Source: Archangium sp.
Lineage (GTDB): Bacteria; Myxococcota; Myxococcia; Myxococcales; Myxococcaceae
Direction of reading: 5' to 3'
Assembly (NCBI GenBank): GCA_030681645.1
Contig: JAUXRX010000007.1
Coordinates: 372,001-436,000, forward strand
Length of the DNA: 64,000 bases
Shown: one piece after another, positions 55,810 to 64,000 of the stretch
Layout: every line of letters begins with the position of its first letter
Position numbering within the stretch: the first letter of the stretch is position 1
Translations under genes and position numbers: made by a program
Notes under the pieces: generated by a model
Database searches by the model: none
The model's input: only the letters and a program-made list of their open reading frames with translations
Told to the model about the DNA's origin: nothing

Positions 55810-58728
55810 TCAGTCGCGTACGCAGGCAGGCACCGACCCCACCACGGCGTCACACGGGTGCCAGAGCCGGCCCAGCTGGTTCGGCCCCAGCTGCGTGGTG
55901 GGCGTGGCCCCGCCCACGATGCCCCCGCACGAGTCGACCGCGTCGAAGCCGATGCTGGTGCAGGAAGGCAACGAGCCGGTGGTGGGCAGGTAGGGCGCGA
56001 TGTGCGCGATGGCGGCCGCGGGAACGAACGTGGGCGTCTGCCCCACCGGAATGGTGCCGGGCGCCAGCCGCATCTCGCTCAGGCCGCCGCCGGTGTTGTT
56101 GAACCAGCCGCTGCACAGGTTGAGGCCCTGCATCGCGAGCGTCGAGCTGCGGAGCCCGAAGATCGACGTGCTCTCCGCACCCAGTGACGCAGAGCAGGTC
56201 GGCGCGTACTGCCGGCTGCGTATGGCCACGTACACGCCGCGCGGCGGGATGACGTCGGTCGCGCCGAAGTTCATCCACCGGTAGCTGGCCGCGGAGCCAG
56301 CCGCGTTGCGATACGCGAAGTGGTGGCCGTCGAGGTTGATGGGGCAGTTCGAGAGGTTGGTGATCTCCACCGACTCGCCCGCCTGGCAGGTGTCCTGGGT
56401 GGTGCAGTTGACCGAGGGGCAGGTGCCCTCGCCGCTGATGACGTACTCGCTGAGCACCACGTTTGACGCGGTGGGGACGACCGGGGTGCTGCACGCCTCC
56501 ACCACGTCGACGGCCAGCGCAGACGGCCCGGAGCAGCAGGTGAGATCGCTCGTGCGGCACGCGCGCACCTCGAGCTGGGTGGAAGCGCCGGGCGGAGGTC
56601 CTCCTCCGGTGATGCGGACCATCGGGCGCAGGTGATTCTCGCCGGCCGCGGCCGAGGCCAGCACCAGCGAATTGCCCGCCCGGGTGAGCTGGTAGGTGAG
56701 CCCTGCGGGCACGGGCGCGAACTGGACGATGGGCCTGCCGTCCCAGCTCGTGCCGCAGGCGGTGCTCACGGGCGGCGCGGGCGGTGAGGCGCACACGCTG
56801 GTGGCGATGGTGGTGGTGCAGCAGGTGGTCGTGCCCGCGTTGTCGCGCGCGCAGAAGGACAGCAAGAAGCTGCCGGGCGCGTCGGGGGTGAACAGCGTCG
56901 AGGGCGCGCCCGGAGTGGCGGGCTGCGCGGTCGAGCCGGCGGGTCTGGCGGCCACCGTCCACTGGGTGAAGACGATGGTGCCGTCGGCGTCGCTGGCGCT
57001 GGCGGTGAGCGTGAGTGTGTTGCCCACCAGCGTGGACACGGCGCCGGGGCACATCACCACCGGAGGCTGGCAGATGCCGTCGTCGTCGGTGGTGCCGTCG
57101 CAGTCGTTGTCGAGGCCGTCGCAGAGATCGGCGGTGGGCGTGCCGGGTGTGCAGGGCTGCACGGCGCCGCCCAGGCAGCTGGCGATCGAGCGCGCGCACA
57201 CGCCCACGCCGCAGGTGGCGGGGGCGAGGCCGTCGTCGATCGCGCCGTTGCAGTCGTTGTCCCGGCCGTCGCACGCCTCGGCCACGGGCGCGCCGGCGGT
57301 GCAGTTCTGGGTGCTGCCACCCACGCACGCGGCCACCACACGCGCGCAGTCGCCCACACCGCAGGCCAGGGGCGTGAAGTCTTCGTCGGTCTGGCTGTCG
57401 CAGTCGTCGTCGACGCCGTTGCAGGTCTCGGCGGTGCCGGCGCCCGGGGTGCAGGTCTGCGTCGCGCCCGAGACGCAGGCCGTCACCGAGCGGAAGCAAG
57501 CGCCCACGCCGCAGGTGAGCGGGGCGAGCCCGTCGTCGACCGAGCTGTTGCAGTCGTTGTCCACGCCATCGCAGGTCTCGGTCGCCGGGGCGCCCGGGGT
57601 GCAGGTCTGCGCCACGCCGCCCGCGCACGAGGCGACGGTGCGGGCGCAGGCCCCCACGCCGCAGCTGAGCGGCGCCAGCCCTTGATCCACCGCGCCGTCG
57701 CAGTCGTTGTCCACCCCGTCACAGGTCTCCGCCGCCGGTGTTCCGGGCGCGCAGGTCTGCGCGGCGCCGCCCACGCAGGCGGGCACGGTGCGGGCGCAGG
57801 CTCCGACTCCGCAGGAGAGAGGGGTGAGCCCTTGATCCACCGTGCCGTCGCAGTCGTTGTCGAGGCCGTCGCACAGCTCCAGCGAGGGCGCGCCGGCGAC
57901 GCAGGTCTGGGGGGCCCCCGCGAGACATGAGGCGATCGTTCGCACGCAGGCCCCGACGCCACACGAGGTGGGCGGGAGCAGCTCATCGGTCTCGCCGTCG
58001 CAGTCGTCGTCGAGGCCGTTGCACGCCTCTGCCGCCGGCGGGCCGGGCGTGCACACGGGGGTCTGTCCCGCGGTGCAGGCGGAGACCATGCGCGTGCACG
58101 CGCCCACACCACAGCTGATGCGGCTGAAGCCGTTGTCCACCTCGCCGTCGCAGTCGTCGTCTTCGCCGTTGCAGGTCTCGGCGGAAGGGGCGCCCGGCGC
58201 GCAGGTCTGCACCACGCCGTTCACGCAGGCCGCGGTGGTGCGGGTGCACGCGCCGACGCCGCAGCTCAGGTCGCTCAGCGCTTCGTCGCTCGTCCCATCG
58301 CAGTCGTTGTCCTTGCCGTCACAGACCTCGGCGACCGGCTCGCCGGGGACGCAGGTCGACGGCACGCCCCCGACGCAGGAAGGCACGCTGGCCGCGCACT
58401 CGCCCACGCCGCAGGACGCGGGGGCCAGCTCTTCGTCGAGCGCGCCGTCACAGTCGTCGTCGACGCCGTTGCACTGCTCGGTCGCGGGCGCTCCGGGCTC
58501 GCAGGTCTGGGCCGAGCCCTCGACGCAGGATCGCACCTCGCGCGCGCACGCCCCCACGCCACAGGTCAGCGAAGACAGATCGTTGTCGACCACGCCGTCG
58601 CAGTCTTCGTCGATCCCGTCGCACGTCTCGGCGCGGCAGCCGGCGTCGAAGGCGCCGACCACCCTCGCGCGCCCGCAGTCGCAGCCCACGCCGAAGGCCA
58701 GCACGAGGAGGGCGGTGGGGAGGCGCAT
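55810..58728 (-). CDS. MopE-repeat lipoprotein with lamin-tail domain
   Basis: A 972-residue lipoprotein; the signal MRLPTALLVLAFGVGC ends in Cys16. Residues ~35-530 are ten repeats of ~47 residues plus a partial eleventh, each of form C(D/N)G-x-D-x-DCDG-x3-D... followed by CGVGAC-x-R and a Cys pair; this resembles MopE-type metal-binding motifs. Then come a PKD-like beta module, a beta domain and a lamin-tail-like domain (NVVLSEYVISG, CQAGESVEITNLS). The DNA repeats lack stops in several frames, so antisense open frames here are artefacts. The function is unknown; metal or glycan binding at the surface is plausible. Confidence 0.85.
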   Translation of the reverse strand: MRLPTALLVLAFGVGCDCGRARVVGAFDAGCRAETCDGIDEDCDGVVDNDLSSLTCGVGACAREVRSCVEGSAQTCEPGAPATEQCNGVDDDCDGALDEELAPASCGVGECAASVPSCVGGVPSTCVPGEPVAEVCDGKDNDCDGTSDEALSDLSCGVGACTRTTAACVNGVVQTCAPGAPSAETCNGEDDDCDGEVDNGFSRISCGVGACTRMVSACTAGQTPVCTPGPPAAEACNGLDDDCDGETDELLPPTSCGVGACVRTIASCLAGAPQTCVAGAPSLELCDGLDNDCDGTVDQGLTPLSCGVGACARTVPACVGGAAQTCAPGTPAAETCDGVDNDCDGAVDQGLAPLSCGVGACARTVASCAGGVAQTCTPGAPATETCDGVDNDCNSSVDDGLAPLTCGVGACFRSVTACVSGATQTCTPGAGTAETCNGVDDDCDSQTDEDFTPLACGVGDCARVVAACVGGSTQNCTAGAPVAEACDGRDNDCNGAIDDGLAPATCGVGVCARSIASCLGGAVQPCTPGTPTADLCDGLDNDCDGTTDDDGICQPPVVMCPGAVSTLVGNTLTLTASASDADGTIVFTQWTVAARPAGSTAQPATPGAPSTLFTPDAPGSFLLSFCARDNAGTTTCCTTTIATSVCASPPAPPVSTACGTSWDGRPIVQFAPVPAGLTYQLTRAGNSLVLASAAAGENHLRPMVRITGGGPPPGASTQLEVRACRTSDLTCCSGPSALAVDVVEACSTPVVPTASNVVLSEYVISGEGTCPSVNCTTQDTCQAGESVEITNLSNCPINLDGHHFAYRNAAGSAASYRWMNFGATDVIPPRGVYVAIRSRQYAPTCSASLGAESTSIFGLRSSTLAMQGLNLCSGWFNNTGGGLSEMRLAPGTIPVGQTPTFVPAAAIAHIAPYLPTTGSLPSCTSIGFDAVDSCGGIVGGATPTTQLGPNQLGRLWHPCDAVVGSVPACVRD

Positions 58729-59860: not shown

Positions 59861-59916
59861 GCCCCAAGCCTAGTACGGCAGTTCGTGAGTTCGTTCGCCG
59901 CGCTTCTTGCGATCGG

Positions 59917-59957
59917 CCCCTCACCCCGGCCCTCTCCCGCTGCGCAGGGAGAGGGAG
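59917..59957. terminator. Dispersed CCCTCTCCC/GGGAGAGGG hairpin
   Basis: Arms are at 59930-59938 and 59947-59955, preceded by CCCCTCACCCC. It lies just after the stop of the sigma-54 activator gene on the minus strand. Confidence 0.7.
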
Positions 59958-59972
59958 GCAGCTGAACGAACT

Positions 59973-61367
59973 TCAGGTCGGCTCGTTCAGCTGGAGCTGC
60001 TTGAGCCGCTTCCACAGGGTCACGCGGGAGACGCCGAGGCGGCGGGCGGCCTCGGCCCGGTTCCAGCCGGTGGCGCCCAGCACCTCGGTGAGCCGGGCGT
60101 GGTCGAGCATCGACGCGCTCCGTCCGGGCGCGAGCGGTGCGGCCGGCGCGGCGGCGAGCGGCACCTGCGGCCGGCGGTGGCGGACCTCTTCTGGAAGGTG
60201 CGCTTCTTCCATCACCCCGCCGTTCGCTCGCAGGGCGGCAAACTCGAGCGCGTTCTGCAGCTCGCGCACGTTGCCCGGCCAGTCGAAGGCGGTCAGGCAG
60301 GCCATCGCCCCCGCAGAGATGGCGCGCGGCCGCGGGCTGCCCCCGGCCGCCAGCCGATCCAGCCAGGCCTCGGCGAGCTGGGGCAGGTCCTCGAGGTGTT
60401 CCCTGAGCGACGGGAGCCGCAGCGGGAACACGGCCAGCCGGAAGTAGAGGTCGGCGCGAAAGCGGCCCTCTTCCACCATCGCCTTGAGGTTGCGGTGGGT
60501 GGCCGAGAGGAGGCGCACGTCGACCTTGAGGGGAGCCGAGTCGCCCACGCGCTCGATTTCGCGCTGCTCGATCACCCGCAGCAGCTTGACCTGCACCGCG
60601 GGCGAGATGTCGCCGATCTCGTCGAGCAGGAGCGTGCCGCCGTGCGCTTCCTGGAAGCGCCCGCGCCGGTCCTTGAGGGCGCCGGTGAAGGCCCCCTTCA
60701 CGTGGCCGAACAGCTCGCTCTCCAGCAGGTTCTCGTTGAGGGCAGAGCACGAGACGCGCACGAAGGGGCCGCCGGCGCGCCGGCTTCCCCGGTGAATGGC
60801 CTCGGCCACGCACTCCTTTCCCGAGCCGCTCTCTCCGAGGATGATCACCGTCGCGCTCGAGCGGGCCACCTGGTCGATGGTCCGGTAGAGGTCCTGCATC
60901 ACCGGGTGCCGGCCGATCATCCCGCAGAAGTCGCCCTCGGGCCGGGCGCTCACCTCGCAGCGCGAGTCGCTCGGCTGGCCCACCGCGGCGAAGGTCTCCA
61001 GCGCACCTGCCGGCGAGCCGTCCTGCGCCGCGATCAGCACCGCGTTCTTCACGATCTGCAGCAGCCGGCCGTCTTTGGTCCGCAGGGTGCACGTCTTGGT
61101 GGTGCGACCCTGGGTCACCAGCCCGCACTTGATGGGCCCCGTGCCGCAGACACAGCCGTGAATGGCGTCTCCGGCCAGGATCGAGCAATCGCGCCCCAGG
61201 GCCTCGGCTGAGGTCCAGCCGGTGATCCGTTCAGCGGCGGCGTTCCAGTAGGTGACCCGCCCGGTGAGGTCGGTGGTGAAGAGGGCGTCGGGCAGGGCGT
61301 CGGCGAGCTGGTGCAGGGCCTCCTCGCTGCCGAGGCCCCGGTACGGAAGATGGAGCAGGGAACCCAT
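59973..61367 (-). CDS. Sigma-54-dependent regulator with Cys-cluster PAS domain
   Basis: A 464-residue activator. The N-terminal PAS domain (~15-130) carries Cys61, Cys72, Cys74, Cys81 and Cys93, a clustered arrangement that could bind an Fe-S cluster or metal. The AAA+ domain has Walker A GESGSGKE (178-185), GAFTGA (225-230) and Walker B TLLLDE. The C-terminal Fis-type HTH is WNRAEAARRLGVSRVTLWKRLKQLQL. No receiver domain is present, so regulation is through PAS. GGGAGGA eight bases before the ATG at 61367 fixes the start. It is divergent from the octaheme cytochrome gene, which it probably activates. Confidence 0.9.
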   Translation of the reverse strand: MGSLLHLPYRGLGSEEALHQLADALPDALFTTDLTGRVTYWNAAAERITGWTSAEALGRDCSILAGDAIHGCVCGTGPIKCGLVTQGRTTKTCTLRTKDGRLLQIVKNAVLIAAQDGSPAGALETFAAVGQPSDSRCEVSARPEGDFCGMIGRHPVMQDLYRTIDQVARSSATVIILGESGSGKECVAEAIHRGSRRAGGPFVRVSCSALNENLLESELFGHVKGAFTGALKDRRGRFQEAHGGTLLLDEIGDISPAVQVKLLRVIEQREIERVGDSAPLKVDVRLLSATHRNLKAMVEEGRFRADLYFRLAVFPLRLPSLREHLEDLPQLAEAWLDRLAAGGSPRPRAISAGAMACLTAFDWPGNVRELQNALEFAALRANGGVMEEAHLPEEVRHRRPQVPLAAAPAAPLAPGRSASMLDHARLTEVLGATGWNRAEAARRLGVSRVTLWKRLKQLQLNEPT

Positions 61368-61395
61368 GGTGCTTCCTCCCACCCCGGGGAGCGCC

Positions 61396-61440
61396 GTTCA
61401 CTGGAAAGGGTTCACGTGAACGTTCACTTGAACGCTTTCC
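61396..61440. promoter_or_regulatory. Array of three GTTCAC-type 12-mers: probable regulator binding sites
   Basis: GTTCACTGGAAA (61396-61407), the perfect palindrome GTTCACGTGAAC (61410-61421) and GTTCACTTGAAC (61422-61433) lie in a row, with an outer inverted pair GGAAAG (61403) and CTTTCC (61435-61440). They sit between the two divergent start codons, ~29 bp from the regulator start and ~137 bp from the cytochrome start, where enhancer sites of a sigma-54 activator would be expected. No convincing -24/-12 promoter (GG-N10-GC) was found in 61434-61570. Confidence 0.65.
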
Positions 61441-61569
61441 GCTAATGCCTCGCTGCATTCGGGCACGTTGCCCCGAGCGGCACCCGTGGCGGAAGGCCAT
61501 GGCATCACTCGTGAAGAGGTGGCCAGCGCCCGCCTGCAGCCCCACTTTCCGCGGGAGAAGGAAATCTGC

Positions 61570-63771
61570 TTGAGCCCCTCATCTCTGCGCCTCGTTCCAT
61601 TGCTCGTGCTCGCTCTCACGTCCTGCTCTGCACCCACCACGCTGCCCCCCGAGAAGACCTGCTCGGACTTCTGCGGCGCAGGCAACGTGTGCGACTCCTC
61701 CGGCCAGTGTGTGCCGTTGGCGTGCGCCCCCGCCTGCGCGCCCGGCACCGCCTGCGAGATGGGCGCGTGCGTAGCCGTGGCGGCGGTGCGGTGTGCCGCG
61801 ACGTACCCGGGCTGCGCGGCGTGTGACACCTCGGCCGCCACGCCGGCCTGGGTGGGCCAGTGCGGAACGGGGACCACCTGCAGCAGCGCCACCGACACCT
61901 GCGTGCCGCTCGCCTGCACCCCGGCGTGTGGACCGGGCACCGCCTGCCAGATGGGCGCCTGCGTGCCGGTGCAGGCCGTCAGCTGCACCGCCGCCTACCC
62001 CGGCTGCGCCGCGTGCGATCTGAGCGGCGCCGCGCCCGTGTGGGTGGGCCAATGCGGCGCGGGCACCACCTGCAGCCCCGCCACCGATTCGTGCGTCAGC
62101 ACCGCCACCCTGCACGCGAGCCTGGGCGCACCCGGCGGTCCGCTCCACGGTCCGTTCCCCACCGGCTACGCGGTGACCGCTGCGTGCGTGGGCTGCCACG
62201 CCAGTCAGGCCGCCGACGTGATGGCCTCCCAGCACTGGACCTGGAGCAGCCGGGCCCCCGACCTCGTCGCCGCCGACGGGGTCACGCCGGTGACGGTCAA
62301 CGTGGGCAAGACGAACCTCATCAACAACTTCTGCGTCGGCACCGTGTCCAACGATAAGCGCTGCGATCAGTGCCACGCCGGGTACGGCGGCGATCCCGAC
62401 ACGGCCAAACCGCAGAAGTCGGCGCGCAAGTACGCCTCGGCTGATTCCGCCACCGGCGACTCGTCCATTCCGCTGGCGCACCGGGTCGATTGCCTGGTGT
62501 GCCATTCCAACCCCACCGCCGCTTACGCCAAGGACCCGAAGAACTTCGGTAACCCGGTGGCCACGCTCAACCTGGCCGTGGCCGCGCAGGACATCGTCAA
62601 GCCCACCCGCACCAACTGCGGCTCGTGCCACTTCTACGCAGGCGGCGGCGACAACGTGAAGCTGATGGGCTCTTCGCTGAAGAACCCGACCGAGGCGATC
62701 GACGTGCACATGGGCCGGGGTATGGAGTGCCTCGACTGCCACCTCGGCCCGTCGCACACCTTCAAGGGCGGCGGCATCCACACCCCGGGCCACGCGGGCC
62801 GGGTCACCTGCGCCGACTGCCACTCCGCGACTCCGCACGAGGGTAAGGTGGCGACGAACGGCGCTTCGCTCGACGTCCACGCCGCGCGCCTCGCCTGCCA
62901 GACCTGCCACATCCCCCGGTTCAGCAAGGGCCAGTTCGGCAAGATGGACTGGGACTGGTCGTCCGCCGGTGACAACAGCACCTGCGCTGGCGGGCCGGGT
63001 ACCTGCTCGGCCGGCGTCATCAGCCTCAAGGTGAACGACGACGGCACGCCCAACCCGGCCTCGGCCAACGCGGTCACCGCCTACGACTTCATCAAGGGCC
63101 GCTTCACCTGGCAGAAGAACGTCACGCCGGCCTATCGCTGGTCCAACGGCAAGGGCACGCACACGCTGATCACCGACCAGGGCGACATGACCGGCATGGG
63201 CCTGAGCACCGCCGACGCCACCCGCCTGTCCCTGGGTGAGCCGATCGGGTCTCCCACCACGGGCAAGATCGCCCCCTTCAAGCTGATGAAGGGCCGGCAA
63301 CCGGTCTTCATCGACGGCCCCCGCAGCTACGTGATCAACCCGAACGTCTTCGGCCCGAGCAGCCTCTGGGGCGTCATCCAGGCGCCGGGCTTCAGCTACG
63401 CCGCCTACGACTTCGACGGCGCGGCGGCCGTCACGCCCGCCCTGGCGTCCTTCGACGCCAACACGAACGGGCAGCTCGACCCGGGCGCAGAGTCGATGGC
63501 GGCGCTGTGGGGCAAGATCCTCGCGACCGGCGCGGTGGCGGCGGGTCAGGCCACCGGCACCACCCAGTTCCCCCGGTATGACGGCGTCAACCCCGGCTAC
63601 GACTGGCGGTACACCAAGCTCTACATGGACCTCAATCACGAGGTGGCACCCAAGGCCCTGGCGCTGGGCGCCAACGGCGCGTGCACGGACTGCCACGGCC
63701 CCGCCCCGAAGCTGCCGTTGTGCGAGCTCTACGCTGGCCGGCCGCTGCCCTGGGGCGTCACCTGTCCGTAG
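61570..63771 (+). CDS. Octaheme c-type cytochrome of the tetrathionate reductase (OTR) family, lipoprotein
   Basis: A 733-residue exported cytochrome. TTG at 61570 is taken as the start because GGGAGAAGGA lies upstream and the encoded signal (LRLVPLLVLALTSC, Cys19) is a lipoprotein signal; an upstream ATG at 61468 would add ~34 non-signal residues. Two tandem 64-residue Cys-rich units (residues 47-110 and 111-174) precede eight CxxCH heme motifs: CVGCH (206-210), CDQCH, CLVCH, CGSCH, CLDCH, CADCH, CQTCH and CTDCH. The segment LACQTCHIPRFSKGQFGKMDWDW matches the Shewanella OTR family. That enzyme reduces tetrathionate, nitrite or hydroxylamine in vitro; the substrate here is not known. Confidence 0.87.
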   Translation: MSPSSLRLVPLLVLALTSCSAPTTLPPEKTCSDFCGAGNVCDSSGQCVPLACAPACAPGTACEMGACVAVAAVRCAATYPGCAACDTSAATPAWVGQCGTGTTCSSATDTCVPLACTPACGPGTACQMGACVPVQAVSCTAAYPGCAACDLSGAAPVWVGQCGAGTTCSPATDSCVSTATLHASLGAPGGPLHGPFPTGYAVTAACVGCHASQAADVMASQHWTWSSRAPDLVAADGVTPVTVNVGKTNLINNFCVGTVSNDKRCDQCHAGYGGDPDTAKPQKSARKYASADSATGDSSIPLAHRVDCLVCHSNPTAAYAKDPKNFGNPVATLNLAVAAQDIVKPTRTNCGSCHFYAGGGDNVKLMGSSLKNPTEAIDVHMGRGMECLDCHLGPSHTFKGGGIHTPGHAGRVTCADCHSATPHEGKVATNGASLDVHAARLACQTCHIPRFSKGQFGKMDWDWSSAGDNSTCAGGPGTCSAGVISLKVNDDGTPNPASANAVTAYDFIKGRFTWQKNVTPAYRWSNGKGTHTLITDQGDMTGMGLSTADATRLSLGEPIGSPTTGKIAPFKLMKGRQPVFIDGPRSYVINPNVFGPSSLWGVIQAPGFSYAAYDFDGAAAVTPALASFDANTNGQLDPGAESMAALWGKILATGAVAAGQATGTTQFPRYDGVNPGYDWRYTKLYMDLNHEVAPKALALGANGACTDCHGPAPKLPLCELYAGRPLPWGVTCP
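61708..62091 (+). repeat. Exact-length 192-bp tandem duplication in the cytochrome gene
   Basis: Copy 1 at 61708-61899 and copy 2 at 61900-62091 encode 64-residue Cys-rich units with the same eight or so cysteine positions (CVPLAC, GTAC, CAAC, GQCG, TTC). A third start (TGCGTCAGC) follows at 62092. Confidence 0.85.
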
Positions 63772-63800
63772 GCGAGGCGCGTGCCTTCCAGGAGAACCCG

Positions 63801-64000
63801 ATGCCTCAGCTCACCACCGCCGTCCTCTGTGCGCTCACCCTCACCGCCTGCGGCGACTGGAACCGGTTGCCGAAGCCGGACGCCATCGTGGCCTCGGGCC
63901 GGGGCCTCGCGGTCACGGCCACCGAGTTCACCGCCCGGCTCGAGGAGCAGCCCCCGTTCGTTCGCGCGGGCTACTCGACCCTCGAGCGCAAGAAGGAGCT
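63801..64000 (+). CDS. Parvulin-type peptidyl-prolyl isomerase-like lipoprotein, 3' truncated
   Basis: Only the first 66 codons are in the window. MPQLTTAVLCALTLTAC is a lipoprotein signal with Cys17; AGGAGA lies five bases before the ATG. The downstream FTARLEEQPPFVRAGYSTLERKKEL matches the N-terminal region of SurA/PrsA-type chaperones of this phylum, which precedes a PpiC domain that would be off the edge. It lies 29 bp after the octaheme cytochrome gene, so it may assist the folding of the exported cytochrome. Confidence 0.7.
   Translation, partial: MPQLTTAVLCALTLTACGDWNRLPKPDAIVASGRGLAVTATEFTARLEEQPPFVRAGYSTLERKKE

Follow-up and report, generated by a model that had tools for sequence, protein, structure and literature searches.

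The window analyzed here, a stretch of 64,000 nucleotides (positions 372001 to 436000 on a contig of 592,575 bases) from the 10.2 Mb genome of an Archangium species (Myxococcota), carries two divergently transcribed genes: (i) a one-component sigma-54 activator with a cysteine-rich PAS domain (59973-61367, minus strand), and (ii) an octaheme lipoprotein of the octaheme tetrathionate reductase (OTR) family (61570-63771, plus strand). On balance, the activator probably carries an iron-sulfur (Fe-S) cluster in its PAS domain and drives the cytochrome gene from palindromes located between the two genes, a reading that is based on sequence comparison. The feature is real and conserved, and is predicted to comprise an OrpR-like Fe-S-PAS activator whose dedicated target is a Cys-rich OTR-like cytochrome; the two seem to form a cassette that can be transferred. 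The protein domains, the conservation of the cysteines, the recurrence of the pair, the palindrome in six genomes and the sigma-54 promoter matches in six relatives are all observed directly in this DNA and in the genomes compared with it.

The regulator has PAS, AAA+ and Fis-type helix-turn-helix (HTH) domains and is 464 residues in length when read from the ATG at 61367. While its longest open reading frame (ORF; 59973-61382, minus strand) opens at a GTG, the ATG is the better start, as it is preceded immediately 5' by the Shine-Dalgarno-like GGGAGGAAG and yields both the 464 residues of the database copy (P0001) and the residue numbers used in an earlier, sequence-only reading of this DNA. 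The Pfam domains are PAS (residues 23-70), Sigma54_activat (155-321), an AAA lid and HTH_8, with scores of 230.2 bits for PF00158 and 46.4 bits for PF02954. The Walker A sequence GESGSGKE at residue 183 and GAFTGA at residue 230 identify a sigma-54 enhancer-binding activator domain, and AAA+ activators are among the matches listed (best 50) in a fold search with the whole regulator. No receiver domain is present in the Pfam listing, as the sequence-only reading had stated. The regulator falls below the NCBIfam equivalog cut-offs for NorR (313.7 versus 476) and NifA (347.4 versus 528.85).

Five cysteines (C66, C77, C79, C86 and C98, counted from the GTG; 61089-61187, minus strand) are located by codon positions and homolog alignment within the PAS query region (60963-61337, minus strand), the model of which has a PAS fold. 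Counted from the ATG, these are residues 61, 72, 74, 81 and 93, exactly where the cluster had been placed. A homolog search with the first 145 residues of the regulator found 157 proteins, and in the alignment of the 120 listed all five cysteines are invariant (120/120); Cys142, Cys153, Cys191 and Cys362 vary in the same set. Near relatives dominate this alignment, as the homologs were gathered by similarity. When 17 Myxococcota PAS domains are aligned, C66 and C86 alone are kept in every row; all five cysteines are in register in 13 rows, the exceptions being L040 (five cysteines, spacing shifted), L045 (four), and L088 and L089 (four at other spacing, without C98). The L046 regulator has a Cys cluster of different spacing that lies outside the search pattern, and is thus not counted as a Cys-PAS protein. 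Conservation of the five cysteines, proposed earlier as a check, is borne out by the larger alignment, and the two alignments together reject the possibility that the cysteines are not conserved. A second search, with a regulator approximately 44% identical to that of the window (L052) as the query, gave 92 matches; the motif C-x6-9-C-x8-18-C-x8-13-C, a four-Cys core, is present in all 25 sigma-54 activators among them and absent from the other 67. A four-Cys core, to which the near group adds one cysteine, hints at a cluster with four ligands, and the PAS cysteines of the regulator are likely to bind an Fe-S cluster, as judged from this pattern. In one relative (L036:8367-8371, genome G054), an in-frame TAG interrupts the PAS-coding part of the regulator ORF, which points to either a recent pseudogene or an assembly error.

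The cytochrome gene starts at a TTG (61570) preceded by GGAGAAGGA and stops at 63771. Its product has an LTSC lipobox, a Cys-rich N-terminal part with 25 cysteines ahead of the first heme, and eight CxxCH motifs, of which the eighth lies far downstream (residue 705, the previous one at 443). The earlier assignment to the tetrathionate reductase family holds with respect to the eight motifs, the match to PF11783 (96.1 bits, cut-off 22.1) and the match to the Shewanella OTR structure (PDB 1sp3, 4.4e-68); by TIGR04315 it does not, as the score of 315.9 bits (4.7e-94) is below the cut-off of 375, a point that counts against an OTR identity. The segments NNFC and GGGDNVK align identically with N61, C64, D150 and K153 of 1sp3, which we take to be active-site residues. 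Thus, the eight CxxCH motifs and these four residues are shared with the OTR of Shewanella oneidensis (1sp3, TIGR04315). By contrast, the score below the family cut-off, the lipoprotein signal, the 25-Cys N-terminal extension and the position of the eighth CxxCH set the window cytochrome apart.

The pairing of regulator and cytochrome recurs. Matches to TIGR04315 are found in 41 of 195 Myxococcota genomes, over the cut-off in 20, and the PAS query (E <= 1e-12) identifies 18 places in 16 of the 195 genomes. At nine of the 18 places, each in a different genome, the Cys-PAS regulator adjoins an OTR-family gene, and seven of these pairs are divergent (G000, G031, G032, G037, G044, G051 and G054). 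Thus, some OTR genes elsewhere in the Myxococcota do have the regulator that the sequence-only reading had proposed to look for, and a pairing found only in this genome is rejected. From the OTR side, 49 of the 51 distinct OTR-family places of at least 100 bits were examined (all but the fragments G008:C606 and G044:C419), several in stretches that are short because the contig ends. A Cys-PAS activator is present at nine of the 49, another divergent sigma-54 activator is nearby at ten, a sigma-54 activator lies approximately 2.7 kb upstream at three, and none is found within the stretch covered at 27. In a maximum-likelihood tree of 46 OTR rows (L042, L048 and L020 excluded), the nine Cys-PAS-paired OTRs fall inside one clade of twelve (support 100/98) that also holds L041, L046 and L047, with three label changes versus a shuffled mean of 8.4. 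Within this clade, the cysteines before the first heme number 10-24 in nine members, 6 in L038 and 4 in L041, L045 being miscounted from a wrong ORF; outside the clade, the canonical OTRs (L121-L136) have 0-3, L043 has 12 and L044 has 6. At L052, the regulator lies downstream of a C-terminal OTR fragment, both on one strand. Nine loci of canonical Myxococcota OTRs (L126, L128 and L130-L136; same order) similarly have a divergent sigma-54 activator; unlike the regulator of the window, however, these activators have no such Cys cluster in their nine N-terminal regions (one incomplete), and their OTRs are without a Cys-rich N-terminus. Regulation of OTR genes through sigma-54 may be widespread in this group.

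The spacer between the two genes includes two adjacent putative operators, the palindrome GTTCACGTGAAC (61410-61421) and GTTCACTTGAAC (61422-61433), each an exact match to GTTCACNNGAAC, and a copy with one mismatch to it, GTTCACTGGAAA (61396-61407, plus strand). Of the three 12-bp sites described earlier, two are thus exact copies of GTTCANNTGAAC and the third is imperfect, so the three are not equal. A 38-bp inverted repeat with 19-nucleotide arms that are 89% complementary (61403-61440) encloses both exact operators. No other exact GTTCACNNGAAC occurs in the window; at one mismatch or fewer there are seven, compared to 2.67 expected (standard deviation 1.65; 3 of 100 shuffles reach seven). 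The whole genome has 12 exact GTTCACNNGAAC places, including the two of the spacer. Directly upstream of the regulator, an exact GTTCANNTGAAC is located twice in the window and also at L036, L037, L038, L039 and L081. The six genomes concerned (G000, G031, G032, G033, G037 and G054) represent three genera (g1, g31 and g36), as G031, G032, G033 and G037 belong to one genus. This copy is the sole exact one of the genome in G031, G032, G037 and G054, and one of two in G033. The regulator of G033 (L081) has GTTCANNTGAAC yet does not neighbor an OTR gene; thus, the site follows the regulator. By eye, half-sites or other spacings of the palindrome are seen at L034, L035, L083 and L086. The window genome has seven exact GTTCANNTGAAC places, two before the regulator and five elsewhere; GTTCANNTGAAC may also mark other respiratory genes in this genome, while no second exact copy is present in G031, G032, G037 and G054.

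Candidate sigma-54 promoters were scored by a general consensus with self-chosen weights (maximum 29) against a background of 128 kb, comprising both strands of the window. Six relatives of three genera (L034-L039) have matches of 24-26 (GG-N10-GC) before the OTR gene, of the form TTGGTACGG...GTGCT or GGGGCACGCGCGTTGCT; scores of at least 24 occur 23 times in the background. The best match in the spacer of the window is a weak candidate, ATGGCATCACTCGTGAA (GG-N10-GA; 61499-61515, plus strand), with a score of 21. Thus, a predicted sigma-54 promoter before the cytochrome gene is well supported in the relatives and not in the window.

In the proposed mechanism, the PAS cysteines would hold an Fe-S cluster and sense the redox state or a reactive sulfur or nitrogen compound. 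The palindromes would serve as the upstream activating sequence of the activator, which when bound there would activate the OTR promoter approximately 80 bp away; a change in the cluster would free the AAA+ ring to remodel the sigma-54 polymerase at the cytochrome promoter. As the palindromes lie 29-66 bp before the ATG of the regulator, binding of the activator there would also restrain transcription of its own gene. To our knowledge, a solved structure and in vitro activity have been described for OTR-family cytochromes, while little is known of when they are expressed and of their cellular substrate. If the mechanism is correct, a dedicated regulator with a rare operator makes the function of OTR testable, as the signal that releases the activator should point to the role of the cytochrome.

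A similar logic is found in OrpR (DVU2106) of Desulfovibrio vulgaris, which is said, in a 2021 paper, to have a redox-sensing [4Fe-4S] PAS domain. If the regulator of the window is of this type, Fe-S PAS sigma-54 activators extend from sulfate reducers to myxobacteria. The sigma-54 activator OrpR has palindromic sites in the space that separates divergent genes and negatively affects its own promoter (PMC3897727), which is the arrangement of divergent genes, intervening palindromes and self-limiting activator proposed here. In six Desulfovibrionales genomes, an excerpt describes the gene of the sigma-54 activator DVU3142 as divergent from the octaheme cytochrome operon ohcBAC, and sigma-54 promoters as well as sites for the activator are predicted there (PMC4641369). 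By contrast to the window pair, Ohc consists of three proteins (OhcA, OhcB and OhcC) and belongs to another phylum, and that excerpt mentions no Cys cluster for DVU3142. No publication on the window pair is among the matches listed, of which DVU3142/ohc comes closest in joining a sigma-54 activator to an octaheme cytochrome. The window cytochrome may be a lipoprotein of the outer membrane, with tetrathionate or nitrite/hydroxylamine as the compounds that it reduces. These are the Shewanella OTR substrates named in two reference titles in PMC8840924, and a Beggiatoaceae relative is reported to have tetrathionate reductase activity and a lower nitrite reductase activity (PMC6449678).

Several observations weigh against an Fe-S cluster, and other chemistries of the PAS domain are to be considered. 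The AlphaFold models have a standard PAS fold, with 3lyx, NifL, FixL and LOV domains as the nearest solved structures, but the Cys loop is a low-confidence part of both models. Ordinary PAS domains and no Fe-S-labeled PAS are among the matches listed in the fold searches with the PAS model, a missing label that excludes nothing. Three histidine-kinase-like matches (P0161, P0162 and P0176) have differently spaced cysteine clusters in the PAS domain; therefore, such clusters are not peculiar to activators. OrpR drives orp operons and not a cytochrome, and its presumed likeness to the regulator is drawn from published description. A thiol/disulfide or zinc-thiolate switch that holds no Fe-S cluster and reacts directly with oxidized sulfur compounds (tetrathionate or polysulfide) is conceivable, if rather doubtful: the four-Cys core of 25/25 distant activators fits the four ligands of a cluster, and OrpR is a reported Fe-S precedent of the same protein class. 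What such a switch would explain is the CxC pair (77/79) and the fifth cysteine that the near group has in addition to four, and it would suit a family in which tetrathionate reductase activity has been measured for one enzyme (PMC6449678). A flavin sensor, LOV-like or NifL-like and with the cysteines in a secondary role, is quite unlikely, even with the FAD-PAS of NifL and LOV domains among the nearest solved folds. The LOV adduct motif is GxNCRFLQ, and the GRDCSILAG around C66 resembles it; however, the R, F and Q positions of LOV are here S67 (118/120 homologs), I/L and A70 (118/120), a departure from the motif, and the five invariant cysteines are unneeded by a flavin pocket. Similarly, FixL and other heme PAS domains are among the nearest by both sequence and fold, but FixL-type heme PAS domains have a conserved proximal His, and no His is conserved among residues 20-145 of the 120-homolog alignment (position 75 is R in 50/120 and N in 27/120), the Cys set being conserved instead; thus, a heme-PAS sensor of oxygen or nitric oxide of the FixL kind is highly improbable. 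Fe-S coordination by the cysteines is the preferred reading.

The dedication of the regulator to the cytochrome is likewise open to challenge, as the two may be mere neighbors, with the regulator controlling other genes and the cytochrome using an unrelated promoter. Half of the related regulators (9/18) are not beside an OTR gene; their neighbors include a multiheme cytochrome (L082 and L083), an amidase (L087), a DsbD-like protein (L089), an AMP-binding enzyme with a pyridine-nucleotide disulfide oxidoreductase (L081) and others, as determined by a rough, simple ORF prediction and a family scan that excluded L084-L086 and L088. Two of the nine pairs are on the same strand, with the regulator upstream in G011 and downstream in G163. 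Relatives of the cytochrome also occur without the regulator, including the clade members L041 and L047 and the 55% identical L051, which has no regulator match in 6 kb upstream. Of the 14 closest regulators, 8 have no exact copy of the palindrome, and the HTH recognition-helix region of the regulators with GTTCANNTGAAC is alike in L040 and L082, where the site is missing; thus, the recognition helix does not single out the site. The window promoter candidate ATGGCATCACTCGTGAA has GA for GC at -12, and scores of at least 21 occur 490 times in the 128 kb background, so this site is no better than chance; a match scoring 22 lies further on, within the coding region. Against chance neighborhood stand the recurrence of the adjacency inside one OTR clade, a palindrome in the shared spacer with no second exact copy in four genomes, and the strong sigma-54 matches before the OTR gene in six relatives, and an unrelated pair is on these grounds unlikely.

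The pair was probably acquired in the window genome from a donor of family f3, which includes Anaeromyxobacter (G054 contig, L050), to judge from the following comparisons. Other genomes of the family of the window, among those searched, have no OTR match above 23 bits, and the window OTR is sister to that of G051 of f3 (100/99) within a group that is otherwise all f3. In G069, a genome of the same genus as the window, the counterpart of the neighboring phosphoesterase is 107 bases from sequence that matches window position 68829 onwards; thus, a segment of approximately 9 kb (59861-68828), with the regulator, the OTR, a peptidyl-prolyl isomerase (PPIase) and two ORFs, is absent in G069. This absence and the nesting of the cytochrome among f3 sequences indicate that the pair was probably acquired horizontally, an insertion in the window lineage being likelier than a deletion in G069. 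The neighboring phosphoesterase is 88-89% identical in two genomes of the same genus and 81% in a third; therefore, the contig is native, despite an assembly contamination rating of 6.66%. Taken with the conserved cysteines, the recurring pair and the operator tied to the regulator, the segment missing in G069 supports the self-contained sensor/reductase locus envisaged by the sequence-only reading. The two further ORFs of the segment (window 59861-64000 plus L002:8001-12828) encode 382 and approximately 866 residues and have no NCBIfam match. Outside the segment, a 972-residue ORF (55810-58728, minus strand) has many CDGxDxDCDG-type repeats, presumably MopE-like, and no nucleotide match in the compared stretch of G069.

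The PPIase is a parvulin-type lipoprotein (63801-64000, plus strand, onward to L002:8682; Rotamase_2, 2.6e-17), and thus a folding factor does follow the cytochrome gene, as had been expected. It is not part of a conserved unit, however, a candidate role that is rejected: a parvulin-like gene is beside 0 of the other 48 OTR loci, only the window's own matching among the 49, and PPIase homologs are widespread, with 118 of 145 genomes of the order carrying them. The best matches of the PPIase are f3 proteins, at up to 49% identity, compared to 31-36% in its own genus.

A tentative possibility is that the Cys-PAS activator is a portable sensor module for sulfur or nitrogen oxides, which is re-paired in the course of evolution with different multiheme reductases and moves from family to family with its reductase and operator as a self-contained cassette. 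The partners in such a scheme would be Cys-rich OTR lipoproteins here and a multiheme cytochrome that is a candidate selenocysteine protein in G035 and G040. The gene of the latter is beside a Cys-PAS regulator in G035 (L083:7284) and G040 (L082:4015) and occurs also in G036 (L166:1720). An in-frame TGA is found at the same place (GMYGK[TW]-TGA-PPS) in all three genomes that match at E <= 1e-30 (145 searched), and selB is present in 7/7 genomes tested. A hairpin with an AGUU loop follows this TGA by approximately 25 nucleotides in the two that were folded, and is not significantly stable (z -1.6 and -0.6; 50 nucleotides). The G035 cytochrome has no match to the ExtKL model NF040886. Within the OTR family itself, L120 (G040:C1:526931-528142) has one in-frame TGA (VSY-TGA-APP) near OTR Cys64, in an alignment that needs a small gap, and TIGR04315 is included in the selenoprotein table of a 2026 review, of which an excerpt was available (PMC13188914).

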